Under the pieces are notes generated by a model that saw only the letters and a list, made by a program, of their open reading frames with translations, did no database searches and was not told where the DNA came from. The translations under genes were made by a program, and so were the position numbers. A DNA stretch of 64,000 bases, taken from the NCBI GenBank assembly GCA_033807695.1, contig CM066304.1, positions 3,472,001 to 3,536,000 on the forward strand. The letters are read 5' to 3'. Every line of letters starts with the position of its first letter. Positions within the stretch are counted from its first letter, which is position 1. Of this stretch, positions 1,769 through 39,962 are shown piece by piece. This DNA comes from Daedaleopsis sinensis. Its lineage: Eukaryota; Basidiomycota; Agaricomycetes; Polyporales; Polyporaceae.

Positions 1769-2675
1769 TGATGAGCCTCAGGACCAGCTAGGCCCCGGAA
1801 ACACCACGCAGCCCATCACTATTCGCGCCCGTCAGTCAATTCACGCAGTATGAAGACGAGCGGCTTCACAAGGAAGGCGAGCGACTACCGAAGGAGCGAG
1901 TACGGAGACATGCCATTCCAAGGGTCGAAGGAGCCGATGCCGAGCTGCCGGCGGCTGACCGAGGTCGCCAGAGCTCTAGCCAGGACAGAGGGGGCGATCG
2001 ATCGAGGGTCTGGTCTAGGCGACCGCCACGGAGTCCAGCAATTGGTACGAAGGTCGTCGGAAGAGGCACGGAAGACAAGGGAGTGAGGGGGACGGCCTTC
2101 CGAGGCCTATGAAGACGAGCGGATGGACTTCAGACGCGATCACGTGGTGACGCGCCACAAGACTAAGCGCTCTCGTGACTGCGGATGCAAGTCGAGCGGC
2201 GACGTGATAGGCTCGGTGCAAACACCTACCTAACCACCGGAGTGCGCCGTAGGGGTTCAGGAGAGGAGGATCGCGACGTGAGCGTGGGAGGAGCAGGGTT
2301 TCCTATGATTGGACGATTGGTAGGATAGTTGTAGTTTATTTGGCGACGATTTGTACAGTATATAAGCCAGCGGGATTGCAGCCCAGCAAAGCAGCGCAGT
2401 AGCTCCAGAGATCGAGTCCGAGTCCAAGAATCATCTAGTCGACACTCAATTGAAGACCGTCCGTCTTCAAATCTCCTCTTGCAGACTAGCCTCACCCACG
2501 GAAGTTGCTTGACTTCCATCTGAAGTTGCTTAACTTCCTTGTCTATCGTCGACGGGCTACGTGAAGAAGAGCGACTACACCGGGAACCTGTCCTCCACCT
2601 CGCACCCTACTAGGTAGCTGATCTCGTGCTCGTTTGGGTGTGTGTTTCGCCCAGCGACCCAGAGTTACCCCATCA
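1769..2675 (+). repeat. 5' LTR of the young element
   Basis: This 907-bp LTR is bounded by the inverted ends TGATG and CATCA and matches 13554-14460. A TATA box (TATATAA, 2359-2365) lies about 310 bp before the 3' end and is the likely promoter of the genomic RNA. Confidence 0.95.
2359..2365 (+). promoter_or_regulatory. TATA box in the LTR
   Basis: The sequence TATATAA precedes the putative R region of the LTR. The same site recurs in the 3' LTR at 14144-14150. It is assigned from motif and position only. Confidence 0.6.
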
Positions 2676-5524
2676 TTCTGGAGCCCACCGCGAGGGGTAC
2701 AAGAACAGTCTCCACCGGTTCCGGCTCAAGAATCCCACGTTTGCGGCCGACGCGGAGCGAACATATCCGTCGCCTCCATCGACAAACCGAACAGGCTTTA
2801 GAGGAAATCGAAGCAGAAGACCCCGAGAGAGCAGAGCAGATCACTACCGTTATCGAGAACAACTTCGCGGTTTTCGCAGACTCTCCGCTTACCGAACTAG
2901 AGGACGCTTCCGAAGACGAGCAGGAGGACATTGAAGTTCCGGACCATCCGTTCCTGACTTCAGAATCAATTAGTAACCCAAGACCTACGCTATCACATAC
3001 CGCAGGGGCCTTCAACCTACCTAGGAACCCCCTTCCTTCCCTGCTAGCCTACGCCGCTCAAATATTACCTACGGCTCTACCACCCGTAGTACCACCTACA
3101 ATCCATTCAATGGCTAGCGCAGATCTATCGAAATTACCGTTGCGTACGGAAAGGAGTGCACCCCAATTCGATGAGGAATCCAAGGACACTGTCGAGCGGT
3201 ACTTTGACGACCTTGCCCGACTCCTGAAGAAGCATAGCATCACTGATGAACAAGCTTGCAAGGCGGCGGCGGTCGACTACATACCAGCGGGAGTCGCCAA
3301 GCGATGGAAGTCCCTGCCGACGTTCTCGGACACCCAGAAGACGTATAAAGAATTCAAGACGGAGGTTCTGTCCTTCTACCTCGGGACGGATGCCCAGTAC
3401 ACCTGGACACTACGAGAATACAATGAAGTCATCGGGGAAGCTGTACGTACGGGGATATCCAGCCTCGAAACCTACATGAAGTTCTACAGCAAATTCTATC
3501 CCATCTACCGGTACTTGCATGCGAAGACCGAACCAGAGCTAACGGAGCGCGACGCGTCGACAGCCTTGCTACGGCTAGTTCCTATGCAGTACACAATGGC
3601 GGTATCCGCGCGGTTAGCACACCAGGTGCCTGCAAAACACAAAGAAGAAGCTTACACGGTCGCGCAAGTTCATGAAGCAATTTCCTATTGTCTGGCGGAC
3701 GGAGGCCCGTTCGGCGGGATCGGAAGTTGGTCAACTGCGACGTCCGGTAACCTCGCTCGAGTCAATCCTCCGGCTCCAGCCATGGCCTCCACGGTTACGG
3801 TGAAAACCGAGCCGGATCTATCGGCCTTCAAGCGGGAGATGATCTCCATGATGAGTTCGACCATGCGCGACTTCGTGAGCCAGCAGAGGATGCAAGCCAT
3901 GCAACCGCCGCAACAAGGGGAACAATACCCTCCACCACCACAACCTCCCCAGGGAAGGTACCAGCAGCAGCAAGGGGGCCTATACGGACGTAATCCACCC
4001 GCTAACGACGAATGCATCTACTGTGGCCTACCGGGATGTCAGTTGAAGACGTGCCCGAAAGTCGCAGAGGACATGACGGCGGGACTCATCCGGAAGGACG
4101 TCTACGACAAAATCATCCTACCAGGAGGCAGTGTGATCCCTCGTAGTCTGCCGGGGAACTGTATGCGCGATAGAGTCAATGCTTGGCACGAAAAGAACCC
4201 AAACCAACGAGCGCGAGGAACCATGAGCAACATCTATCAGTTCGAGATGCAGGAAGACGAGCGTACCTTGGAAGAGGAGTTAGAAGTCCTCATGCACAAG
4301 GCAAACATGGTTAAAGAGCGCATGAACACTCGCTCGGGACGGCAGGTTTTTGATGGAGTCGAGCTAGAGACGCGGCCTCAACGTATTACGCGCAACTCGG
4401 AGAAAGGGAGGGACGACACGCGGGCAGGGACGCCCGTGCGTGATCAGCCGCCTCACCAGCCGACGAGAGAGAAGGGGAAGGAGAAGGAGAAGCACGTTAC
4501 CTGGGACACGAGGGCAAAAGAGCCTGAAGAGACCTTCCATCCTTATGCGCCGACTGTGGTACCCAGAGGCCAGGAACTGCCGAAGAAGGACGAACCACCG
4601 GTCAGAAGGACCGCAGCGATCATCGACCCGACCGCGGAAGAAAGAGTCTTCAACCGAAGCTTCGGAGACAGCCAGAGTATCACAGTGTCACCAGCCGAGC
4701 TACTCAGTATTTCTCCAGGACTCAGGAAGCGAGTGCATGAGGCCACAGCTCTCAGGCGAACGCAAGTCAGAGACGAGCAACTGCAGGAAGTGACCAACCG
4801 GGAAGGCGAGCGGCCTCGGAACAAGGTACTAGTGACCGAAGTCGCTGAAGACGAAGACTTCCCGGAAGATAACCTCCAGACAGCAGGAAGTTCATCCTCA
4901 GGGACCGGAAGACCGACGCTTGGATCCTTTGCATTCGTAGACCTGGACTATGAAGGCAGCGAGGACGAGGACGATGAGCCAAAGTCGCACAATGCCCCGT
5001 ATGTAGCTCCGGGACAAGGCTATCCTGCGAGCAGTCGGCGGAAGTCAACCATCGTAGCCTCGGAATCGGAGAAGCTGAGGTCGCTGTTCACCTGGGTAGC
5101 TCGAACGGACACGCCGACAGAGTGTACACTCGACGATGGGTCCCAAATAGTCGGTATAAACGACCAAATTGCTTATGCGTTGAAGATCCCCTACGATCCT
5201 ACCAAGCGAAGGAGGATGATCAGCGCAAATGGGACGGTCGACATGACACTCGGTCTAGCAAAGAACGTGCCTGTGGAATTAGGTGGCGGGATCGTGGTCT
5301 ACCTCCAGATGCATGTTGTGAAGGCAGCGCCTTACCAGATCCTCCTAGGAAGGCCGTTCATGACGGTGATGCGTGCAAGGTCGAGCAACTCTATGGATGG
5401 CCAATTGTCAATTACCGTCACTTGCCCTAACTCGAACCGCGAATTGACGCTACCGACCTACGCGCATGGAGACTCTCCGAGTTATGGACTCAGAGTCGAG
5501 GGTTTTCGGGCTTCGAGGATCTGA
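2642..5524 (+). CDS. gag: Gag-protease polyprotein
   Basis: This is the structural polyprotein of the young element. In order it has an acidic N-terminal region, a capsid-like domain (about 3130-3720), a proline/glutamine-rich linker, a zinc knuckle of C-x2-C-x4-C-x4-C type near 4014-4060, a long charged linker, and a retropepsin-like domain (about 5050-5430) with an LDDGSQI active-site loop and ILLGRPF flap/C-terminal signature. The frame opens inside the LTR, and its first in-frame ATG is at 3110. However, the roughly 150 codons before that ATG look coding and share an SPLT-L-acidic segment with the N-terminus of the older Gag. The true start is therefore unresolved (non-AUG start, lost ATG or spliced leader). 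It ends in a TGA that overlaps the pol ATG. Confidence 0.88.
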   Translation: MFRPATQSYPIILEPTARGTRTVSTGSGSRIPRLRPTRSEHIRRLHRQTEQALEEIEAEDPERAEQITTVIENNFAVFADSPLTELEDASEDEQEDIEVPDHPFLTSESISNPRPTLSHTAGAFNLPRNPLPSLLAYAAQILPTALPPVVPPTIHSMASADLSKLPLRTERSAPQFDEESKDTVERYFDDLARLLKKHSITDEQACKAAAVDYIPAGVAKRWKSLPTFSDTQKTYKEFKTEVLSFYLGTDAQYTWTLREYNEVIGEAVRTGISSLETYMKFYSKFYPIYRYLHAKTEPELTERDASTALLRLVPMQYTMAVSARLAHQVPAKHKEEAYTVAQVHEAISYCLADGGPFGGIGSWSTATSGNLARVNPPAPAMASTVTVKTEPDLSAFKREMISMMSSTMRDFVSQQRMQAMQPPQQGEQYPPPPQPPQGRYQQQQGGLYGRNPPANDECIYCGLPGCQLKTCPKVAEDMTAGLIRKDVYDKIILPGGSVIPRSLPGNCMRDRVNAWHEKNPNQRARGTMSNIYQFEMQEDERTLEEELEVLMHKANMVKERMNTRSGRQVFDGVELETRPQRITRNSEKGRDDTRAGTPVRDQPPHQPTREKGKEKEKHVTWDTRAKEPEETFHPYAPTVVPRGQELPKKDEPPVRRTAAIIDPTAEERVFNRSFGDSQSITVSPAELLSISPGLRKRVHEATALRRTQVRDEQLQEVTNREGERPRNKVLVTEVAEDEDFPEDNLQTAGSSSSGTGRPTLGSFAFVDLDYEGSEDEDDEPKSHNAPYVAPGQGYPASSRRKSTIVASESEKLRSLFTWVARTDTPTECTLDDGSQIVGINDQIAYALKIPYDPTKRRRMISANGTVDMTLGLAKNVPVELGGGIVVYLQMHVVKAAPYQILLGRPFMTVMRARSSNSMDGQLSITVTCPNSNRELTLPTYAHGDSPSYGLRVEGFRASRI
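2679..2697 (+). other. Primer-binding site
   Basis: TGGAGCCCACCGCGAGGGG begins 3 bp after the LTR. It would pair with a tRNA 3' end reading ...CTCGCGGTGGGCTCCA, which places the invariant C61 correctly and gives a U discriminator base. The identical 19-mer lies next to the LTR of the older element (15025-15043, minus strand), so both elements use the same primer tRNA. The tRNA identity is not determined. Confidence 0.75.
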
Positions 5525-5526
5525 TG
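5522..5526 (+). promoter_or_regulatory. TGATG overlapping stop/start between gag and pol
   Basis: The TGA ending gag (5522-5524) and the ATG opening pol (5524-5526) share one base. Coupled termination-reinitiation at UGAUG or UAAUG is known in some fungal and other RNA viruses. Its use here is inferred from the arrangement. Confidence 0.55.
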
Positions 5527-8500
5527 AACAGTCAGGGAGAGGTCGCTCTCGTCCTCGACTATGACGCAAGAACGGGTCAAGTTTTCACGACGGCGTACAA
5601 GGACTTAGAAAACCTAGAAAATTCCACAATTCAGTCAGCATATCTATCGGCCTGTGATGACTCCGAGACAAAGCAGAAAATCAAAACCATGTTCTCGAAA
5701 GTATCGATCCAGGAATCGGAAGGGGATAGAATGCGGAGCCGACAACCACATCGCGAAGTCGACGGAGCCCTCTTCCGAGGACGAGCACTCCCAGTATACG
5801 CTACGAAAACCAGAGGCAGAAGAGCAGTCAGAATCCGGTCTAGGTCCAGCGAAGCAGCAAGAGCGAGCGAGAAAACCGAGCCGAGCGAGCAAGAACAAGA
5901 GGCGGAAGGCGAGCAACTTCCAGAAGACGACGAGCGGCAAGCAGCCACCGAGGACCCCGAGAGCGTACGCAGTTACGTGAAATCGAAGAAGAAGTACAAG
6001 CCAGTGGATAAGAAAGTACGACCAGTGATTGGGGAGCTTCCCAAGCAGTACAGAATTGTACGGGAGATAATCGGCGACCCTCTCGAAGGGATGAAGCCGC
6101 TTGACCTCAATCCAAAGCCTTTTGAACCAACTGGGCGGTACACAGCTGAACGACGCGAGAAGCTCCACAAAGTCAATGCTCACCTATCGGAAGAAGAGCT
6201 AGCTTTGCTAGACGACATGATGTGCAAACAGGAGCAGGGATTCGCTTGGGAAGACAGCGAGCGTGGCCACTTCAGGACGGACATGTTCCCACCAGTGAAG
6301 TTTGCGGTTGTGCCTCACACTCCGTGGATTGAAACGAATTTCCCCATTCCACCCGGAACCTACCGACAAATCTGTGAGATCATGAAGAAGAAAATAGAAT
6401 CAGGCGTATACGAACCGTCAAATGTGTCTTACCGATCCAGATGGTTCTGTGTGCTGAAGAAGGACGGGAGTCTGAGGATCGTCCATAGTCTGGAGCCGCT
6501 CAACAGAGTCTCTATTCAACACAGCGGTGTACCGCCGATACCCGACCACATGGCGGAACGCTTCGCAGGGCGTGCGTGCGGGACAACCTTGGATCTATAC
6601 GTTGGATACGACGAGAGGATCCTGGACGAAGAGTCGCGCGACCTCACGACCTTCCAAACGCCTTTCGGAGCCATGCAACTGACGACGCTACCAATGGGAT
6701 GGACAAATTCAGTACCCATCTTCCATGACGACGTGACCTACATATTGCAGCCTGAAATTCCGGATACGACGATTCCCTACATCGACGACGTACCTGTCAT
6801 TGGACCGGAGTCTTCCTACGAACGGGAAGATGGTTCTTTCGAGTGTATGAAGGAGAATCCAGGCATCAGGAGGTACATCTGGGAGCACATGCAAGACGTC
6901 AACAGGATTGTACAGCGGATGAAACATGCGGGAGGTACCTTCTCGGGCAAGAAGTTCGTCTGCGCGGCGCGCGACTTCGTAGCGGTGGGACATCGATGCA
7001 CACCGGAAGGCCGTCTTCCAGAGAGAGGTTGCGTGGATGCGGTACTCAAATGGGGACCGTGTAAAAATGTTTCCGAAGTACGGTCGTTCCTGGGAACGGT
7101 AGGCGTTGGGAGGATCTTCATCAAGAACTTCGGGAAGAAGGCCGCGCCATTAGTCAAGCTCACGCGGAAGGACGTACCGTTCGAATGGGGAGAGGAACAG
7201 GACAAGGCCATGGAGGATCTAAAGACAGCATTAGTAGAATCCCCGGCCTTGAAGTCGATCAACTACGAGTCGAAGGCCCCGGTAATTCTAGCGGTGGACA
7301 CCTCTTATATCGCGGTCGGCTACCAGCTGTGTCAAGAGGATCCGGAAGACCCGCGGAAACGATACTACAACCGCTTTGGATCCATTACCTTGAATGAAAG
7401 GGAAGCCAGATTCTCACAACCGAAGCTCGAGCTATATGGTCTGTACCGAGCATTGAAGGCGCTCCGCTTTTGGCTGGTCGGTGTACGAAACCTAATAGTA
7501 GAGATGGATGCGACATCTACGAAATCCATGATCCAGAATCCGGATGTCGCGCCGAATGCAGTCATGAATAGGTGGATCATTAGCATCAATATGTTCCACT
7601 TCGAAATGCGGCACGTACCTGGAATCTCCCATGGACCGGACGGTCTCAGCCGACGACCTGCGCAGCCTGAAGACGAACCAGAAGAAGCAGACAACGGAGA
7701 ATTCGATGACTGGGTGGACAACATGTACGGCTTTACACACCTCATAAATCCACCTCCACACCTGGGAGACGCTCCTCTACAACACGAGGTTACGCGGAAA
7801 ACGAGCAACTTCGAGACGGAAGCGATGGGCTTCAGTGCGCTCATGCAGCAGACAAGCGGGACGGCGGGCAAGCTACCGGACATGCCAGAAATTGACTACG
7901 CAATCGTACCGCGCACGGAGGTTGCCCAGGAGTTTGACCACAGAATAGCGAACGTCTACGAATTTCTGTGCACCAAGAGAAGACCGAAGCTGGTTCAGAA
8001 GGAGCTCGATGTGTTCGTCAAATACGCAGGACAATTCTTCGTGAAGGATGGCCGACTATGGAAGATAGCGAAGAACGGGAACCACAGGAGAGTACTACCT
8101 CCAGAACTACGAGCGAAGGCATTCGTGAGCATGCACGACTTCATAGGACACAGAGGCGTACAGGCGACAATCTCCTTCGTGGCCGAACGGTTCTGGTGGC
8201 CAGAAATGAAGGCGGATGTGGCCTGGTATGTGAGAAGCTGCCACCAATGTCAAATTCGACAAACTACGCGGATCTACATACCACCTTCAGTTTCCTATCC
8301 TGCGGCGCCGTTTGTACGAGTTCACGTCGACTCTATGGACATGCCTGGCTCGTACAAGCACTTCTTCCATGCGAGGTGTGCAACCACAAGTTATGCTGAA
8401 GGACGGGCAAGTACAGTCCAAACAGCGAAGGCGGTCGGCGACTGGATCTACCAAGACCTGCTGTGCAGATGGGGAGCACTGTCCGAGATCGTTTCAGACA

Positions 8501-9294
8501 ACGGAAGTCCATGGGTTGCAGCGTTGGAGTACCTGGCAAAGCAATACCACGTCAAGCACATACGGATCTCAGGATACAACTCACGAGCGAACGGGATCGT
8601 CGAGCGGCCTCATTTCCACGTCCGGGATGCGCTCTTCAAAGCATGCGAAGGTGATACGACGCAATGGGTGGCGCGGGTATATTCAGTACTCTGGGCGGAC
8701 CGAATCACAGTACGCAGGAGACTAGGGTGCTCACCCTACTACGCGGTAACTGGGACGGATCCAATCCTGCCCATGGACATCACAGAAGCCACGTACCTGC
8801 TGCCTATACCGACGAAGCTCGTGTCCACAACGGAGTTGATCACCAACAGGGCGATGGCCTTGCAGAAAAGACTGGAGGACATAGCGCGGTTGCGGTCAAC
8901 CGTCTACCGAACACGCGTGCAAGCTGCGGAGCTATTCGAGAAGGAACACAGCGCAACCATCCGAGACTTCAACTTCCAGCGAGGGAGGCTGGTTCTGATG
9001 CGGAACACGGCAATTGAGAAGTCGCTCAACAGGAAGATGAGACCACGGTACCTAGGCCCTCTAGTAGTGATATCGCGCAACAGAGGCGGCGCGTACATCA
9101 TTGCAGAACTCGATGGGACCGTCTTCGATCGACCCATAGCGGCCTTCAGAATCATCCCCTACCTAGCGCGTGAGGACCCAATCAAATTCAATATTGAGGA
9201 ACTGGACGCACCACAGAGCCGACTGCAAGAATTAGAAAACACAACGGAAAACTACGAAGAGGAAGGATTAGCAGACGACGACGAACACAACTGA
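5524..9294 (+). CDS. pol: Pol polyprotein: reverse transcriptase, RNase H, integrase
   Basis: This 1256-residue frame starts at an ATG overlapping the gag stop (TGATG at 5522-5526), in a different frame from gag. An acidic N-terminal spacer precedes the reverse transcriptase (VLKKDGSLR motif, LDLYVGYD, and the catalytic YIDD near 6779-6790). RNase H follows (AVDTS, then an E-containing KLELYGLYRAL helix). The integrase comes next, with an HHCC zinc finger (H-x3-H, C-x2-C near 8130-8255) and catalytic D, D and E in VDSMD, VSDNGSPW and NGIVERP. The C-terminus has a GPL/GGAY (GPY/F-like) module and no chromodomain. Protease is absent here because it sits at the end of Gag. The frame is intact, so the element may be competent. 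Confidence 0.95.
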   Translation: MNSQGEVALVLDYDARTGQVFTTAYKDLENLENSTIQSAYLSACDDSETKQKIKTMFSKVSIQESEGDRMRSRQPHREVDGALFRGRALPVYATKTRGRRAVRIRSRSSEAARASEKTEPSEQEQEAEGEQLPEDDERQAATEDPESVRSYVKSKKKYKPVDKKVRPVIGELPKQYRIVREIIGDPLEGMKPLDLNPKPFEPTGRYTAERREKLHKVNAHLSEEELALLDDMMCKQEQGFAWEDSERGHFRTDMFPPVKFAVVPHTPWIETNFPIPPGTYRQICEIMKKKIESGVYEPSNVSYRSRWFCVLKKDGSLRIVHSLEPLNRVSIQHSGVPPIPDHMAERFAGRACGTTLDLYVGYDERILDEESRDLTTFQTPFGAMQLTTLPMGWTNSVPIFHDDVTYILQPEIPDTTIPYIDDVPVIGPESSYEREDGSFECMKENPGIRRYIWEHMQDVNRIVQRMKHAGGTFSGKKFVCAARDFVAVGHRCTPEGRLPERGCVDAVLKWGPCKNVSEVRSFLGTVGVGRIFIKNFGKKAAPLVKLTRKDVPFEWGEEQDKAMEDLKTALVESPALKSINYESKAPVILAVDTSYIAVGYQLCQEDPEDPRKRYYNRFGSITLNEREARFSQPKLELYGLYRALKALRFWLVGVRNLIVEMDATSTKSMIQNPDVAPNAVMNRWIISINMFHFEMRHVPGISHGPDGLSRRPAQPEDEPEEADNGEFDDWVDNMYGFTHLINPPPHLGDAPLQHEVTRKTSNFETEAMGFSALMQQTSGTAGKLPDMPEIDYAIVPRTEVAQEFDHRIANVYEFLCTKRRPKLVQKELDVFVKYAGQFFVKDGRLWKIAKNGNHRRVLPPELRAKAFVSMHDFIGHRGVQATISFVAERFWWPEMKADVAWYVRSCHQCQIRQTTRIYIPPSVSYPAAPFVRVHVDSMDMPGSYKHFFHARCATTSYAEGRASTVQTAKAVGDWIYQDLLCRWGALSEIVSDNGSPWVAALEYLAKQYHVKHIRISGYNSRANGIVERPHFHVRDALFKACEGDTTQWVARVYSVLWADRITVRRRLGCSPYYAVTGTDPILPMDITEATYLLPIPTKLVSTTELITNRAMALQKRLEDIARLRSTVYRTRVQAAELFEKEHSATIRDFNFQRGRLVLMRNTAIEKSLNRKMRPRYLGPLVVISRNRGGAYIIAELDGTVFDRPIAAFRIIPYLAREDPIKFNIEELDAPQSRLQELENTTENYEEEGLADDDEHN

Positions 9295-9325
9295 CACTCA
9301 CGTTGACGAGGACGTCAAATGGAAA

Positions 9326-9339
9326 AAGTGGGGGGGAGG
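9326..9339 (+). other. Upstream copy of the polypurine tract
   Basis: AAGTGGGGGGGAGG lies about 30 bp after the pol stop. It is identical to the tract touching the 3' LTR at 13540-13553. Together the two bracket the antisense cassette. Confidence 0.6.
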
Positions 9340-9744
9340 AAGTCGCCTGACTACGGAAGTCAATTCCTCTACCGGCCGAAGAGCGCTTCAAGAGGCGCTT
9401 CGCGCGTCGGTCATCTCGGAGATCACACAAGAAGAAGAGCAGAAGGCGATGCGATACATTCAGGATACTAGATACAGTACAGATTAAGAAGGACAACAGA
9501 AGCTGAGCGCGATGGGATACGGGAAAGAAAACCAGAAGGAGACATTACAAAGCCCAGAGCGACAGGAGGGAGACGGAGAGACTAGTCCGCGGGAGACAGA
9601 GACGAGCAGCGGGGATATATGCGAAAAACAGAAAACGAGACAGCGCGAGCCGCGCGATGACAGGACGAGACGACGACCAAGAAGGAGACGACAAGAAAAG
9701 CTAATAACGAGAAGTCCGTGGACGCGCGCGCATCGAAGAAGTCC

Positions 9745-12008
9745 CTACTCGGCATTGCGAAGAAGCTCGAGGAGATCCTCACGATATCCATTGGACGCCA
9801 CCAAGTCCTTGAAGGACCGCACGTCGTCGCACCCTTCGATCTTCACGCCAAAATCGAGCTGGGTCTGTCGAGTCTCGCGGCGGGAAAGCTGCCAAATGGA
9901 CACCAAGTCCTCGACGATGCGCGCGCGTGCGAGACTGACCTGCGAGCGAAGATGGTTGACCTTCGCGACGACCTCCGGCGAGAAGCTGACCGGCTCCGGC
10001 GACTTGCGCTTGGAAGACGAGGACTTGATCGAGATCTTGAGGGGCGTCGCCGGTTGGGAAGCTGACTTGGAGGGACTCGGCTTCTCCTTCTTGACGCTGC
10101 CAGAAGCGCGAGATGAACGAGGAGGCGGCGTAGAGTCGTCGGGTTCGGCCTTGCTGTTGCCATAGTCTTCGAGCAGGCGGCCCTTCTCGTCGAGCGAAGG
10201 ATAACGTGTAGGACCCTCCGGGTACGGGTAGACGGGGGTGTCCTTCCGGATGGTCTTCGGACGAAGACGCTCCTGGAGCGCGGCCTTGTCGACGGAGAGG
10301 AATTTGTGCGAGTTCCTCTCGAACTGGCGGACGAAGTCGACGGCAAGAAGACGGTCGGCGGGCGGCAGCTGCGAGGGTTCCCGGAAGGAAAACCCAACGA
10401 CGTTGTACATCGCGCCGATGCGGGCGTGCACTAGAAAGAAGACAAGAAGTCAGCAAGAAGACCGAGGAAACAAGGGGAAAGGAACTGACCTTTGACCGTT
10501 CCCTGGACACTCAGGTGGTCGTACGCGCACGAGAAGCTCTTCCCCTTCTTCTTGCAGAAGTTGCAGCGGAACGCGGAAGGGTCCGGACGTCTGCAGGTGA
10601 CCCCGGCGCGACGGCACTCGTCGCAGTCGCCCTCGATCTGCACGGCGCTGGACAACTCCACGGAACCTTGGCGAGTGGAAGGAGGCTTCTTGTCGCGCTT
10701 CTTGACCCTAGGCGACAACTCGACGACGGGAGGCGGACGTTTGCGGGGCGAGGTGCGGGACTTCTTCTTAGGAGGCTCCTCCTCCTCGAGTTGGTCGACT
10801 TCCTCTTCGCCTTCATCGTCGACCTCGCCCTCGGCATCGCGGTCGGGATCGTCCTCGGGAGGGGAAACAGCCTTACGCTTTCCCTTGTCGACGGGCTTCT
10901 TGGGCGGCTCGCTCTCATCGGTACTGAAGAAGAGGGGTGTCTTCTTCCTCTTCAGCGGCAGCTGAGACAGCGGAGGCGGAGGAGGATGGTCAGGCGAGAG
11001 GGGGGAGCGTGTGCGGAAACGACGAGGAGAGTCGCGCTGGGCAGCGTCGGCCAGAGGCTCGTCGTCAGAAGCTTCCTCCTCGGGAACGTACTCGGCACCA
11101 GTGACCATCGCAGCCAGGAAGGCGTCGCCAGGAAGTGCATCGGGGTCAGACGAATGCGCGGTCGACGAGGAAGTGGGGCGTGTGACGAGCATCCTCGTGA
11201 GACGCTTCTTGTCGAGGACCGGGACGTAACGCATGCCGGACAGCAAAGGCAAGAACTGGTCGACGCGAGTGTCGATGGTTTCACGAGAGGCGCGCATGTC
11301 GGGCGGGTAATCGGCGACCTCCATCCAGCGCGGCTGGATGATCTCGTGGTACCAGTTCACTGCAAGGAAGAGCGGTATTAGTCAAGCGAGAGTGAGGGCG
11401 AAGAACGTAAGTACTTACGCTCGAAGAAGCCCAGCCGAAGGCGGTGAGCCTGGAAGGCGATGTCGATATCCAGCGGGGACTCCGTGACGGTGCTCGAAAC
11501 CGCGAACAGCCGCAACCGGCGAGAAGTCAGCGCGTACGAGCGAAAGAATTCCGAGACCAGGGAGGGCGGCGCGTAAAACTCGAATGTCGGTAGCGCGGCG
11601 AGGAGGAGGGGATCCAGATACCAATTCCACTCCGGGACGAGACGGTGCTGCGAAAAAGGAATGTGTCAGCAAGGCAGGACTTGGAAGGCCGGGACGGCGT
11701 ACCAGAGCCATGACGATACGCGCAAACATGGCCTGGAACGTGCCATATGAGAACGTAGCGAGCTGGTCGTCGGTGTACTCTTCCAAGATCGCCCGGAAGT
11801 CGCTGATCGTCAGCGGAGCGGCGTCCTGATCGCGAAGCTCGTCAGGCGTAGTAGGAACGGGCTCCTCACAGCCAAGTCGATCGGATTCACGCGTGAATTG
11901 CAACGGGAGCCACTTGAACAGCTCCTTGGGGATCGGTCGCCGAGGAGCATCGGAAGACGAGCGAGTGGCGGCGACGTTGGAAGACGAGCGACGGTTGGAA
12001 GCGGACAT
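9745..12008 (-). CDS. Antisense cargo gene 3: 696-aa protein with Zn2Cys6-like cluster
   Basis: The gene model has four exons at 12008-11703, 11647-11419, 11359-10490 and 10430-9745. All junctions are GT-AG and the joined frame closes exactly at 697 codons. The N-terminal half is helical with no family I recognise. An acidic/basic low-complexity middle follows (KKKS and PPKK tracts, possible nuclear localisation). Near 10527-10625 there is a cysteine cluster C-x2-C-x6-C-x9-C-x2-C-x8-C, which fits the fungal Zn(II)2Cys6 spacing, starting CDECRRAGVTC. The last exon is charged and probably helical. The gene lies antisense to gag-pol, so its introns are not recognised in the sense genomic RNA. 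DNA binding is inferred from the cluster alone. Confidence 0.8.
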
Positions 12009-12181
12009 GGTGGGCGATGTATGAGCAGACGAGAGGAGAACGCACGAAGGCGGACAACCAGAAGGCCAAAACGTTTATTAAGGGCGACAGTCAGAAGAAC
12101 GTGAAGGGAACCGTGAAGTACAACGTCCAAATGCGGTAATCTAAGCGCTCTCCGCGCGACGGCGATCGAGGGCGGCCCCAA

Positions 12182-12836
12182 TCAGTCGCACATCAAAGGA
12201 ATAGAACCGAAGACTTCATCCTCGTCTGACAGAGAGGACGGCGACCTTTCCAGCTTCTTGATGGCCGCGCGGAGGGCGGACTGCTCAATACGGACCCCGC
12301 GCAGTTCAGCGGCGACCAATTCCAGACGCGCGAGTACTTCCGAAAAATGAACGCGGTACCGGTCGTCGCGTGCCAGGTCGCGCATGACCTCCAGGAGTTG
12401 AAGTTCGTGTTGCAGAGTGGCGTGCACTGAGTCCAGGAAGTGGAGGCGGTACGGAAGGCGGTGCGTCTGGACCAGGTCGACAAGGAACGCCTCAAGGCCG
12501 TTAGAGAAGAAACACTGGTCGATGGCGATGGACACGCGGGCAAGTAGGTCGGAAATGTCGACGAGAAGGCCGTCATGAAGCATGCTCCAACCATACTGGG
12601 AAGGTGTCAATCAAGCGCGAGAAGCATCAGGCCGAGAAGCTCACCAAAAGTTGTCCTAAACGGGAAAGCGCGTGTTCATACACAACGCGGGGACAGCCGT
12701 GGTCGACGGATACCGTCTCGAAGAACTCGATTTGCTCAACAATGTGCGCACGAAGCGGGGAGAGGAGTTCAAGGGCCAACTCGCGGTGCGAGCTGACTTG
12801 GAGGGCGAGCGTACGCGGGAGGACGGTCGACGACAT
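12182..12836 (-). CDS. Antisense cargo gene 2: 201-aa helical protein
   Basis: Two exons (12836-12645 and 12595-12182) are joined by a GT-AG intron, and together they close at 202 codons. The predicted product is leucine-rich and mostly helical, with no signal peptide or membrane segment and an acidic serine-rich tail. I do not recognise a family. A TATA box (TATAAAG on the minus strand, 12878-12884) lies about 45 bp upstream. It sits between the other two antisense genes, about 60 bp after the stop of cargo gene 1, all in the same orientation. Confidence 0.72.
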
Positions 12837-12898
12837 GAAGAATGGAAGTTGATGAACTTCGAAGGCAGTTACAGCGGCTTTATACGACACGCGGCTAC

Positions 12899-13469
12899 TC
12901 AAAAGTGGATGTCCTCTCGGAGGCTGGCAAACTCCTGATCTATCTCCTCCATTTCCTTTTCGACCTTCCGGATCCGGGCATCAACCAGAATAGACTCCGT
13001 GATCAAGGATCCTCCGGCGCGGTTGAGGACGCGGCGCGCGCAGAGTTGCTTCCGGAGCCGCTGCTGACAGGCAATGCGACGGGCATCGAGGTCGGCCCGA
13101 CGAGCGCACCGACGGGACCGGGCGACAAGCTCTTGGAAAAGGAAGAGCTGACGGTCAGCCAAGGCAGGCCAGCCCTCGGTGATCGTATTCTCGGTCCGTT
13201 TCACGAAGTCCGCGGCAACCTCGCCATCGTCTCCCAAGGTGATCAAAGTGTCCTGCCATGAAGACAGTCAGCCACGAAGACGAGGGCCTACACGCGGAAG
13301 GAGAACGACGTACCACCAGTTCAGCGATATGGTCGTAGGAATCGTAGATGATTCCAACGTCCTCTTCAGTACGAGCGGCAGCAAGGGCCTCGAACTCAGA
13401 GATCGCGACTTCAAGCTGACGGACAGTCTCCGTGAGGATGGGAACGTTGAGGAAGATGAAGGCAGACAT
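12899..13469 (-). CDS. Antisense cargo gene 1: 169-aa coiled-coil-like protein
   Basis: Exons 13469-13314 and 13252-12899 are joined across a GT-AG intron and close at 170 codons. The product is rich in E, L, A and R with heptad-like spacing, especially in the C-terminal third. It has no recognisable domain. A TATA box (TATATAAA on the minus strand, about 13504-13512) lies roughly 40 bp upstream, close to the polypurine tract and 3' LTR. Its function is unknown. Its integrity in a young element suggests it is maintained. Confidence 0.72.
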
Positions 13470-13539
13470 TGCGAAGGATGAAAACCGAGGATGGAACGAG
13501 GGAGTTTATATACGCGCAAACCGAGGACGGTTCGAATGC

Positions 13540-13553
13540 AAGTGGGGGGGAGG
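13540..13553 (+). other. Polypurine tract of the young element
   Basis: AAGTGGGGGGGAGG directly abuts the 3' LTR start, the expected position for the plus-strand primer in LTR elements. Confidence 0.85.
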
Positions 13554-14460
13554 TGATGAGCCTCAGGACCAGCTAGGCCCCGGAAACACCACGCAGCCCA
13601 TCACTATTCGCGCCCGTCAGTCAATTCACGCAGTATGAAGACGAGCGGCTTCACAAGGAAGGCGAGCGACTACCGAAGGAGCGAGTACGGAGACATGCCA
13701 TTCCAAGGGTCGAAGGAGCCGATGCCGAGCTGCCGGCGGCTGACCGAGGTCGCCAGAGCTCTAGCCAGGACAGAGGGGGCGATCGATCGAGGGTCTGGTC
13801 TAGGCGACCGCCACGGAGTCCAGCAATTGGTACGAAGGTCGTCGGAAGAGGCACGGAAGACAAGGGAGTGAGGGGGACGGCCTTCCGAGGCCTATGAAGA
13901 CGAGCGGATGGACTTCAGACGCGATCACGTGGTGACGCGCCACAAGACTAAGCGCTCTCGTGACTGCGGATGCAAGTCGAGCGGCGACGTGATAGGCTCG
14001 GTGCAAACACCTACCTAACCACCGGAGTGCGCCGTAGGGGTTCAGGAGAGGAGGATCGCGACGTGAGCGTGGGAGGAGCAGGGTTTCCTATGATTGGACG
14101 ATTGGTAGGATAGTTGTAGTTTATTTGGCGACGATTTGTACAGTATATAAGCCAGCGGGATTGCAGCCCAGCAAAGCAGCGCAGTAGCTCCAGAGATCGA
14201 GTCCGAGTCCAAGAATCATCTAGTCGACACTCAATTGAAGACCGTCCGTCTTCAAATCTCCTCTTGCAGACTAGCCTCACCCACGGAAGTTGCTTGACTT
14301 CCATCTGAAGTTGCTTAACTTCCTTGTCTATCGTCGACGGGCTACGTGAAGAAGAGCGACTACACCGGGAACCTGTCCTCCACCTCGCACCCTACTAGGT
14401 AGCTGATCTCGTGCTCGTTTGGGTGTGTGTTTCGCCCAGCGACCCAGAGTTACCCCATCA
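13554..14460 (+). repeat. 3' LTR of the young element
   Basis: This is a 907-bp copy of 1769-2675 with the same TGATG/CATCA ends. It is followed by the target duplication GCGC at 14461-14464. Confidence 0.95.
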
Positions 14461-14988
14461 GCGCGCAGGGAGTGCGTCGAGCGGGGAGGCCATGGTGGGT
14501 ACAGTCGCTGCGGGAGGAAGCAGGGGAATCGGGGCGGTCGATTGGGAGGGTTGCTGTGCGGGCGGCGGCGAAGGTGCAGTTGTACGGCGGGATGCGCTGG
14601 ACGTAGGGGGAACTCGAGGGGCCGGGGGTGCTACGCTAGGGAAGGGAGCTCGTGGAGTCGGTTCTCTACCAGCTCGTCGTACGGCGGAGGCGGTGGGAGC
14701 GTCAAATCCGGGGGCGACCGCAGTTGCAGCAGCTCTTCGCGAGTTCTGTGTAGTCCGCGGAGCCGGGACGCGCGGTGGGACGGAGGTGGATGTGCGGCGA
14801 GCGCGAGAGGTGGCAGGAGGGACTGGCGCGGGGTGGTCCTCTGTCTCGGGAAGCTCGTCGAGGTCGGTCAGGGGAGAGGCACTGCGCTGGGAAACGGGCC
14901 GGGGTTCTTCCGCGGGCGGCGGTCGAGGAGGGCGGGAGCCGGACGTGGTGCTTCGGGGGAGTGCGGGGTCAGGGACCGGTCGTAGCAT
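14461..14988 (-). pseudogene. Gag of the older element, N-terminal segment
   Basis: An ATG at 14988 opens a proline/alanine-rich frame that runs to the LTR of the young element, where a stop created by the LTR end terminates it. Removing the young element and one GCGC copy restores an open frame into 1764-1. It includes an SPLTDLDELPETED segment like the acidic N-terminal region of the young Gag. The start lies about 37 bp downstream of the older element's primer-binding site, as expected for gag. Confidence 0.75.
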
Positions 14989-15045: not shown

Positions 15046-16142
15046 TGTTGGGAGGGCACCGGCGATCTACTAGGAAAACCCAGCAGATACAACACCGGGC
15101 AGACTCTCCGAAGGGTGCGAGGTGGACCTCTGGGCAGCAGCTGTTGTAAGACTGATACATCATAACCTGGATACTCCTCTACAATGTATTGCAATATAAG
15201 TAGGCTGTACACCTGATGTATCACGATGTCCCGGGGGTATAGAGGACAGGCCGGGGATGGCTGTAGGGCTCCGCTCGGCACCTCGGCACCCTGCCTAATG
15301 GGGGCGGCTTCGGTCGTTTGAGCGGCTACACGCCCAAAAGAGGCAGAATGACGCCCGGGCGACCCAAAAGGGACGGTGCGGACGTTTTCCACACGTGGCG
15401 GTGCGCCTGGGAGGGCGGACGGCGTCTGTGCGTCCCGATTGGGGCCACGCTCGGCATCTAGCGGTCTGGACCGGGCCGCGGGAGTCTCCGCGTCCCGATT
15501 GGGCCCGCAGTTGCTGGCTGGCGTCTAATGCACGGGAACGGGTGCAGGGCATCTGTAGTGCCAAAAGCGGCACTGCTACTCGCCTTCCAGCGCTCCTGCT
15601 TAATATAGCAGTTAATCTGAAGCCCCGGGACGTTTTCCAGTCCATGCGGGCTCCTGTGTGCTGTAGTATCTACATGCGCGGTGCGGTAGGGCGGTCAGGA
15701 CACCGTGAGAGGGAGAACGGCGTCTATCCGACCCGATTGGGCCCACAGTGCTGGCTGGCGTCTAATGCACGGGAACGGGTGCAGGGCGTCTGTAGTGCCA
15801 AAAGCGGCACTGCTACTCGCCTTCCAGCGCTCCTGCTTAATATAGCAGTTAATCTGAAGCCCCGGGACGTTTTCCAGTCCATGCGGGCTCCTGTGTGCTG
15901 TAGTATCTACATGCGCGGTGCGGTAGGGCGGTCAGGACACCGTGAGAGGGAGAACGGCGTCTATCCGACCCGATTGGGCCCACAGTGCTGGCCGGCGTCT
16001 AACGCACGGGAACGGGTGCAGGGTGTCTGTAGTGCCAAAAGCGGCACTGCTACTCGCCTTCCAGCGCTCCTGCCCAATATGGCAGTGACTCAGACACTCC
16101 GGGTTGCCTCTGCTACCTGTGCATGTGTGTAGTCGTGCAACA
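15046..16142 (-). repeat. 5' LTR of the older element, carrying tandem repeats
   Basis: The left boundary is fixed by the adjacent primer-binding site, where the LTR terminus reads TGTTG on the plus strand. The right boundary is proposed at CAACA (16138-16142), which makes a 5-bp inverted end pair and a 1097-bp LTR. The partner LTR lies off the window, so the outer boundary and TSD cannot be checked. Much of its length is a 237-bp tandem repeat. Confidence 0.6.
15514..16085. repeat. 237-bp tandem repeat, about 2.4 copies
   Basis: Units start at 15514, 15751 and 15988 (spacing 237 bp both times) and differ at only a few positions. A more diverged partial unit may precede them (about 15370-15513). 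Because 237 is a multiple of three, a plus-strand reading frame stays open through the array, but it shows no gene-like features. Confidence 0.9.
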
Positions 16143-38103: not shown

Positions 38104-39962
38104 TTCCATTCACCGTCTACACCGATCACAGGACTTTGGAGAACTTCGCCACTCAGAAGCACCTCTCGCAACGACAAGCTCGATGGCAAGAGTTCATGGG
38201 GCAATATGATTTCAACATTGTGTACCTCAAGGGTGACAATAACTCCGTCGCCGACTCCTTGTCTCGCTTGCATCCTCTGGATGAGATCATCGACCCCTCC
38301 TCCATCGCTGCAGTGCGCGATTTCCGCTCGGCTTCCTCCGCCTTGCATGCTCGCACTATGTTGAATCCGATCGCGACCATCATCGCGCCCGTGACCGCCT
38401 TGCGTATCGGTACCGACCCCGCTTGGCTCGAGCGCATTCGTTCTGGGTACCGCACGGATCGCTGGTGCGTCAAACTCTTGAAGGGTCTTGCTGGAGACTC
38501 TGAATCTGCCGCACTCGCTCTGTTCGACATCGGTGATCTCAACGGTCGCTCCCATGCTGGTGTCCGCTGCAACGACAAGCTGCTGTACGTCGGTACTCGA
38601 CTAGTCGTTCCCCGCATCGACAACCTGCGAGAAGTCATTTTCGCTCTCGCCCATGACACGCTCGGTCACAGCGGTTTCGACAAGTCTTACTCCGCTATCA
38701 GGGAGGACTATTACTGGCCTCACATGCGCAAGGAGCTTCAGACTATGTACATTCCGGGTTGCGATCCTTGTCAACGTAACAAGGCTAGTACCCGGAAACG
38801 TCCTGGGCCCTTGCACCCTCTGCCTGTGCCGGACGGTCGCTGCCTCTCTGTGGCTATCGACTTCGTCGGTCCCCTGCCTCTCGACGGTGGTTTCGACAGT
38901 CTCGTCACCATGACTTGTCGAATGAACTCCGGTATCCGTATAGTCCCCTGTCGGACCGACATATCGGCAGAAGATTTCGCTGCCATCTTCTTCCAACATT
39001 GGTATTGCGAGAACGGCCTTCCGGACGTTATCATCTCCGACTGCGACCCTCTCTTCGTATCCACATTCTGGCGCGCACTCCATCGTCTGTCTGGCGTCAA
39101 GCTCAACCTCTCTTCGTCGTTTCACCCTCAGTCTGACGGTGCGAGCGAGCGCTCGAACAAGACTGTCGTCCAGATGCTCCGCTTCCATGTCTCGCGGAAG
39201 CAAACCGGCTGGGTATCAGCTCTACCTGCTATCCGGTTCCAATTCATGAACACCGTCAACGCCTCCACCGGCTACACCCCCTTCCAACTATGTCACGGTC
39301 GCTCTCCCCGGGTCATGCCCCCGATCTCCTCCGACGCTCTCGACGGTACTCGTGTCGTATTCCCCTCCGGAGCTGACGCTGCTCGCGATGTCATCGCGCG
39401 GCTCGAAGTCGACACCATGGAGGCGGCTGACAACCTCCTCCTTGCGAAGATCGATCAGACTGACGCTGCCAACCACAACCGCGCTCCTGACCCGTGCTAT
39501 TCCATCGGCGACCAAGTGTTGCTTTCCACTTTCCACCGCCGTCGTGAGTACATGCAACGCGGTGACACTCGTGTCGCCAAGTTCATGGTACGCTTCGACG
39601 GACCTTTCCGCATCATCCAGGCCTGGCCTGATTCCTCCGCATATACTCTCGAGCTTCTAGACTCGATGAATATCTTCCCCACCTTCCACGTCTCTCTCCT
39701 GAAGCCATTCGTTCCTAACGACGGTATTCTGTTCCCCGGGCGCGAGGACGCTTGCCCCGGACCCATCGTCGGCCCGGACGGCGAATCCGAATGGTTCATC
39801 GAACACATCTTGGATCGTCGTCCCATCGGTCGCGGGTTTCGCTATCTTGTTCGTTGGCTCGGATACAGTCAAGCCCATGACTCTTGGTTACCTGGTCGCG
39901 AGCTCAAGGATTGCGAGGCTCTTGACGTATACAACCGGGACAACGGCATCGAGAACTCCTGA
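38104..39962 (+). pseudogene. 5'-truncated chromovirus pol: RNase H end, integrase, chromodomain
   Basis: The frame begins abruptly in RNase H (PFTVYTDHRTLENF, ADSLSRL). The integrase has an HHCC finger (H..H, C-x2-C in GCDPCQ) and catalytic residues in AIDFVGPLP, ISDCDPLF and GASERSNKTV. The GPF-type module is KFMVRFDGPFRIIQAWP. The C-terminal chromodomain is EHILDRRP..YLVRWLGYS..DSWLP. Gag, protease, reverse transcriptase and primer-binding site are missing. It ends at TGA 39960. A polypurine-like stretch (GGATGGGGGAGAG) abuts the LTR at 40070. It belongs to a lineage different from the elements at 1-16 kb, which show no chromodomain. Confidence 0.92.

Follow-up and report, generated by a model that had tools for sequence, protein, structure and literature searches.

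A 64,000-nt stretch of the Daedaleopsis sinensis genome (assembly GCA_033807695.1, contig CM066304.1, positions 3,472,001 to 3,536,000; hereafter the window, numbered from its first letter) harbors a young, Ty3-like long terminal repeat (LTR) retrotransposon of 12.7 kb at 1769–14460, in which three genes are encoded on the minus strand between pol and the 3′ LTR. These genes, called A, B, and C, comprise 696, 201, and 169 codons in four, two, and two exons, respectively, and are interrupted by five GT-AG introns of 49–61 nt. All models close exactly in frame at these lengths; an original prediction, made from the sequence of this stretch without database searches, had modeled the same three genes and is reproduced exactly. 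The present analysis concerns these genes and the two copies of a polypurine tract that bracket them.

Antisense Gene Models

Gene A, the nearest to pol, starts with exon 1 at 11703–12008 (ATG at 12008) and continues on the minus strand through intron 1 (11648–11702), exon 2 (11419–11647), intron 2 (11360–11418), exon 3 (10490–11359), which carries a six-cysteine motif, CDECRRAGVTCRRPDPSAFRCNFCKKKGKSFSC, intron 3 (10431–10489, GTCAGT..TAG), and exon 4 with the stop codon (9745–10430). Gene B consists of exon 1 (12645–12836, ATG at 12836), an intron (12596–12644), and exon 2 (12182–12595), and gene C of exon 1 (13314–13469, ATG at 13469), an intron (13253–13313), and exon 2 (12899–13252), both on the minus strand as well. 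The boundaries come from the exact models and from comparison among copies, supplemented by an alignment for exon 3 of A and by other families for exon 2 of C. The intron donors are GTACGC, GTAAGT, GTCAGT, GTGAGC, and GTACGT, the acceptors are YAG, and branch-point-like sequences (CTGAC, TTGAC, and CTAAT) were identified in the introns by eye. As had been predicted, B and C each have their own TATA box, TATAAAG at 12878–12884 (−48 from the ATG) and TATATAAA at 13505–13512 (−43), respectively, and A is preceded by a weaker TATA-like sequence, TAATAAA, at 12074–12080 (−72), all on the minus strand. Comparison of the upstream regions of A, B, and C with each other and with the LTR gave no convincing regulatory word common to them.

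Conservation and Selection Among Copies

The element in the window belongs to what is called family 1 here, for which a search that scores best candidates only found at least 30 near-complete copies and several pieces with the module in the same 51.6-Mb genome. The coding parts of 22 of the 30 near-complete copies (the window copy, L009–L028, and L030) were compared, together with the degenerate copy L029; those of the other eight were left out. The exon lengths of A, B, and C are identical in all 22 near-complete copies, with no premature stop, and the frames are intact in 22 of the 23 compared copies, the 23rd, L029, being a broken remnant. The frames are thus conserved among these copies, as the original prediction anticipated, and those of A and C are conserved in other families, too (see below). 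L016 is the one copy in which intron 2 of A no longer has its donor.

Among the 22 copies, no insertion or deletion pattern is found in 3,207 nt of exons, compared with five patterns in 283 nt of introns and four in 771 nt of intergenic sequence (a fifth intergenic pattern, from L029 alone, was excluded); under random placement, the probability that all nine patterns miss the exons is ~3.5 × 10−6. Variable sites at codon positions 1/2/3 number 61/32/137 in A, 13/11/22 in B, and 5/3/25 in C, so that third positions account for 137/230, 22/46, and 25/33 of them. The ratio of nonsynonymous to synonymous substitution rates (dN/dS), pooled over pairs, is 0.22 for A, 0.32 for B, and 0.06 for C; with site counts included, the ranges are 0.22–0.27, 0.32–0.50, and 0.06–0.11, well under the value near 1 that the original prediction had named as speaking against it. 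A, B, and C contain fewer nonsynonymous changes than expected under neutrality from the non-coding spectrum (P = 8.5 × 10−24, 0.013, and 3.6 × 10−9, respectively). Chance open reading frames (ORFs) are ruled out by the indel, codon-position, and dN/dS tests. Judged from these comparisons of copies, A, B, and C are protein-coding, intron-bearing genes under purifying selection.

Furthermore, in a survey of pol ends that scored 40 of 56 candidates, the module adjoins 34 of the 35 scored family-1 pol ends (≥91% identity), and the lone exception is truncated within pol.

Related Modules in Other Families

The same genome contains at least four further families in which an antisense gene resembling A, accompanied by one or two small ones also in antisense, occupies the corresponding position. 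Family 2 (L031) and family 3 (L034 and L035), whose pol ends are 63%, and 67% and 65%, identical to that of family 1, each carry three antisense genes in the order seen in family 1, with one intron each in B and C. Exon 2 of C is 354 nt long in families 1, 2, and 3 and aligns without gaps at ~30% identity, and the homology of C between family 1 and families 2 and 3 is detected by profile at E = 7 × 10−11. For A, families 1 and 2 share 29% identity over the cysteine region and the following part (E = 7 × 10−19). Between families 2 and 3, dN/dS is 0.09 for C exon 2, 0.32 for C exon 1, and 0.14–0.19 for B. Two further values for C exon 2 were excluded: 0.87 between families 1 and 2, which is saturated (dS 1.06, 29% amino acid identity), and 0.64 between L034 and L035, which is based on 5 changes, too few. 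Family 4 (L036) and family 5 (L038; pol 64%) each have an antisense A and one small antisense gene; A of family 4 matches the A alignment at E = 8 × 10−8, and A of family 5 is 69% identical to that of family 4. Two more loci, L032 and L033, are remnants with matches to B/C and A.

Contigs outside this genome contain related genes, too. P0001 is 73% identical to A and reads through introns 2 and 3 at the same places, P0002 and P0003 are 90% and 85% identical to B, and P0004 encodes an A close to that of family 3. Because at least four more families share a related module, and because 34 of 35 pol ends adjoin it, the module is not a recent acquisition, and "cargo", as the original prediction called it, is the wrong word for what looks like an old constituent and no recent passenger.

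Per 200-nt block, L036 and L038 share 93–96% identity in the small antisense gene, the terminal polypurine tract, and the start of the LTR, and mostly 57–86% before that. By this pattern of identity, the 3′ part has been swapped between families 4 and 5.

A Duplicated Polypurine Tract

Two copies of a polypurine tract (PPT) bracket the module on the plus strand. The terminal tract, PPT2 (13540–13553), lies directly before the 3′ LTR, and the same 14 nt, AAGTGGGGGGGAGG, form an internal tract, PPT1 (9326–9339), which starts 32 nt past the end of pol. The stretch 9340–13539, which the original prediction had singled out, is exactly the sequence between the two tracts. Within the element, the next best match to the 14-nt tract is 11/14. 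The core of PPT1 is invariant in 23/23 family-1 copies, and that of PPT2 in the 22/22 copies that have it. The tract pair differs between families and matches within the element, being TCAGTTGGGGGGAGA in families 2 and 3, TCGGTGGGGAGGAGG in family 4, and GTGGGGAGGAGG in family 5; the exact match between PPT1 and PPT2 extends over 14, 15, 18, 15, and 12 nt in families 1 to 5, respectively.

The element has a second copy of its PPT in the interior, one of the features of central-PPT retroelements; the central tracts of lentiviruses and Ty1 prime a second start of plus-strand synthesis. Probably, PPT1 primes such a second start at the edge of the module in reverse transcription. That PPT1 and PPT2 change together is easier to account for if one and the same RNase H has to cut the two tracts.

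Alternatively, with the module otherwise as interpreted here, PPT1 may be a scar left when the module, perhaps from another mobile element or a virus, joined the 3′ end, and not a priming site. The tracts do bracket the module precisely, and the case of families 4 and 5 indicates that 3′ parts get exchanged. However, a scar would be expected to decay, yet the core of PPT1 does not vary among copies, and its sequence changes from family to family along with that of PPT2. Moreover, the proteins have no similarity to a named virus or transposon in Pfam or protein searches, which did not extend to PHROGs. A scar is the less likely of the two readings of PPT1, although it is an alternative to be taken seriously.

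Predicted Properties of the Proteins

The cysteine motif of A in family 1 has the spacing CX2CX6CX9CX2CX8C. The Zn2Cys6 consensus is CX2CX6CX5-12CX2CX6-8C, which the family-1 motif fits; slight departures in spacing occur at the last step in families 2 and 3 (CX9C) and at the second step in family 4 (CX10C). The six cysteines are invariant in 4/4 A sequences of one alignment and in 5/5, from four families, of another. A also has several basic patches, and no membrane segment is found in A, B, or C, the highest 19-residue Kyte-Doolittle mean being 1.24. Exon 2 of C is predicted to form three helices, with a predicted local distance difference test (pLDDT) score of 84, and a Foldseek search with C gave 167 matches at E ≤ 10, none of them at E ≤ 0.001. 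CGG dyads, considered as sites for a zinc-cluster protein, are no more frequent in the LTR than expected (10 observed against a shuffle mean of 10.0). Most likely, in view of the motif and the basic patches, A would be a nuclear DNA-binding regulator, with B and C as its partners.

Insertion Sites and Recent Movement

Target site duplications were sought in 29 copies (the window copy and 28 others), and 23 had both ends. The six unscored copies comprise two joined tail to tail, one without a 3′ LTR in the extracted sequence, and three whose 5′ start lies outside the extracted sequence. All 23 scored duplications are 4 bp long and have the form NCGN: GCGC (6), CCGT (6), CCGC (3), ACGT (2), GCGT (2), CCGG (2), ACGC (1), and GCGA (1). 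This form is not due to chance, as CpG occupies 9.3% of the window positions outside the element. Because 23 copies have NCGN duplications, at least 23 independent insertions of module-bearing copies must have taken place. The first 43–113 nt of both LTRs are identical in 15/15 copies compared. In two copies, L017 and L019 (C9:1158508 and C9:1152445), the sequence flanking the 3′ end leads into the 5′ LTR, in inverted orientation, of another copy; the two joints share a 20-nt inverted match, and normal flanks are absent.

Element Architecture and Genomic Setting

The element in the window is bounded by a GCGC duplication (1765–1768 and 14461–14464, from the target site comparison). Its 5′ LTR (1769–2675, TGATG...CATCA) and 3′ LTR (13554–14460), both in plus orientation, are identical over all 907 nt, as the original prediction had noted. 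On the plus strand, gag, with an aspartic protease at its end, occupies the open frame 2642–5524, and pol, assigned from Pfam matches to reverse transcriptase, RNase H, and integrase, occupies 5524–9294. The order gag, protease, reverse transcriptase, RNase H, and integrase between the LTRs, together with the PPT at the 3′ LTR and the short target duplication, is that of Ty3/gypsy elements. The protease match (E = 1 × 10−5) is slightly under the curated cut-off of Pfam, and integrase is recognized only by its zinc-binding H2C2 domain; the domain scan listed no match to the rve core at E ≤ 0.001. The stop codon of gag overlaps the ATG of pol in TGATG at 5522–5526, an overlap that suggests coupled termination and reinitiation. 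A single pattern taken from behind the 5′ LTR, the only one used in the search for a primer binding site, gave no genome match for a tRNA. An Rfam scan of the window gave 0 matches.

Flanking the element (1–1768 and from 14461 onward) is another Ty3-like element, on the minus strand, that served as its insertion target and whose gag is 39% identical at 1767–1204. An antisense A gene resembling that of family 3 is located in matching orientation ~5–7 kb upstream of the window (C5:3465172–3466862), and this gene may belong to the surrounding minus-strand element. Elsewhere in the window, a 237-bp tandem repeat of ~2.5 copies is found at 15512–16103, the first two copies being identical, and a weak pol-like match of 23% identity at 38622–39308.

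Comparison with Known Systems

Boty-like elements with an antisense gene, brtn, are said to have been described by Zhao in 2011. The original prediction could name no described element with such genes; precedents do exist, and, as far as the accessible text of the sources goes, antisense accessory genes at this place are known from Retand, Grande, and Boty (PMC7264820; PMC11963269). The plant elements Retand, Grande, and RIRE2 (aORF-3R) are likewise Ty3 elements with antisense ORFs at the same place (PMC7264820; PMC11963269). In the accessible parts of these two papers, GENE23 of Grande has its own promoter and encodes a nuclear protein, and the TRP28 product of the Retand antisense ORF is predicted to bind DNA, with a proposed regulatory role; the functions of antisense ORFs in LTR retrotransposons are called unknown in one of them (PMC7264820). 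The Retand lineage differs in that its antisense ORF contains TRP28 (PF04195), to which A, B, C, and the scanned proteins of families 2 and 3 gave no match up to E = 10. It also differs from the three genes and five introns found here in that the word "intron" has 0 occurrences in the accessible text of the Retand paper (PMC11963269). Boty-like elements of Botrytis, fungal Ty3 elements with brtn as an extra antisense gene (PMC7264820; PMC8365987), are likened here by description only, and the one gene is all that the accessible text names. HBZ and APH-2 of human T-cell leukemia viruses (HTLV) are antisense nuclear proteins of retroviruses (PMC11963269), for which the accessible text of PMC7264820 places the antisense promoter in the 3′ LTR; HTLV differs in having one antisense gene per virus rather than three, and no sequence link is expected.

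For the tracts, the lentiviral central PPT and PPT2 of Ty1 are likenesses. Bongo3 of beet is another, its second internal tract, PPTa, overlapping the gag-pol stop codon; Bongo1, Bongo2, and other clades are without duplicated tracts according to the accessible text (PMC3605345). For human immunodeficiency virus, an abstract names a 3′ and a central tract. Unlike the tracts of Bongo3, lentiviruses, and Ty1, the pair found here brackets an antisense module, co-varies, and is kept in five families. The insertion preference resembles that of ZAM of Drosophila, which has a strict CG-containing target with the integrase specificity CGCGCg (PMC2527525, in its accessible part), whereas in the present element strictness is confined to the central CG of the 4-bp duplication NCGN. 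The word "antisense" has 0 occurrences in the accessible text of Muszewska 2011 (PMC3248453) and of a paper on Laccaria transposable elements (PMC3411680), and that of a bdelloid paper (PMC5408684) has extra ORFs and no "intron". Neither a spliced antisense gene set conserved across families nor a duplicated tract bracketing one appeared in the titles and abstract openings searched, a scope outside which subscription papers and most full texts lie.

Interpretation and Alternatives

The comparisons favor, with a probability of about 0.85, the interpretation that A, B, and C form an old accessory module owned by the element itself in a clade of fungal Ty3-like elements. Their retention in intact form by related elements suggests a second, separately switched gene set and not a random passenger. 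In such an element, the host would transcribe A, B, and C independently of the LTR transcript, with TATA promoters of their own, and these transcripts would be spliced and translated separately from the sense RNA; the antisense introns would escape removal because it is the opposite strand that is packaged as RNA. With less certainty, A as a nuclear factor (six-cysteine cluster, basic patches, and no membrane segment) may regulate LTR transcription or steer the cDNA, and the small proteins B and C, of which C is a predicted helical bundle, may act as partners of A. PPT1 would prime a second plus-strand start, as the central tracts of lentiviruses and Ty1 do. A fuller model, in which the element has two compartments, sense gag-pol and an antisense, host-spliced regulatory set of two to three genes, the latter delimited by the tracts as its own plus-strand segment and including a zinc-cluster protein that controls the timing of transcription or the destination, is put forward tentatively and may well fail in one part or another.

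Several observations weigh against parts of this interpretation. For gene B, singletons alone fit neutrality (P = 0.29), and single pairs with the window copy give dN/dS from 0.27 to 1.01 on 7–38 changes, making B a weak case for selection. The homology of B between family 1 and families 2 and 3 is weak (E = 0.012), and the kinship is recognized mainly by position, the one intron, the length of exon 1 (192 vs. 186 nt), and a WxxLHDG motif. Only two antisense genes are visible in families 4 and 5, and the small one matches neither B nor C clearly (E = 0.12 and 0.005). In L037, a degenerate pol relative, no module is visible, and the protein searches scored only candidates sharing most words. 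As for the zinc cluster, Pfam PF00172 (Zn_clus) scores 9.3 bits on the A motif against a cut-off of 21 (E = 1.7), and the Pfam scan listed no such match for families 2 and 3. A profile of the A region against solved chains listed eight at E ≤ 10, headed by a ribosomal protein (E = 0.068); the best of the other seven, which we take to be Zn2Cys6 proteins (GAL4 in four entries, LAC9, CBF3 subunit B, and PPR1), has E = 0.48, and no library threshold is reached. An AlphaFold model of the family-2 A region has a middling pLDDT of 72, and fold searches with it were not significant. Finally, other repeats with no evident role are present, of 15 nt in family 1 and 13 nt in family 2; because repeats of 13–15 nt exist elsewhere, the length of the tract repeat alone is no proof, and the argument rests on its constant place.

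Passenger genes, recently transduced from the host, would account for the introns and TATA-like sites, which resemble those of host genes. However, the homologues of A, B, and C in the loci that were opened adjoin pol or an LTR, and none was seen apart from element loci among the minority of listed places that were inspected; together with the related modules in five families and the purifying selection, this largely refutes the passenger origin, which has become very improbable. Equally hard to maintain is that the antisense RNA alone damps the element through duplex formation and that the frames are incidental. Sense and antisense transcripts would indeed overlap fully, and damping of this kind is discussed for plant elements in the accessible text of PMC7264820, but the codon-position bias, the indel-free exons, and the dN/dS far below 1 for A and C point to protein coding; an RNA effect on top of it is possible. 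An env-like role in particle export or cell entry, to which the location between pol and the 3′ LTR, the place of retroviral env, would lend itself, has almost nothing left in its favor given the lack of a hydrophobic segment, the antisense orientation, and the basic patches and cysteine cluster of A.

As an accessory module owned by the element, A, B, and C make a sharply defined system: the three genes are defined and apparently spliced, near-complete copies number about 30, sister families allow comparison, and a candidate DNA-binding motif is at hand. What is new here is that two copies of the PPT bracket the module in a family-specific sequence. The module indicates that antisense introns can persist for a long time in an element copied through RNA, and the tie between a gene set and a conserved, duplicated priming tract offers a testable link between gene content and reverse transcription.

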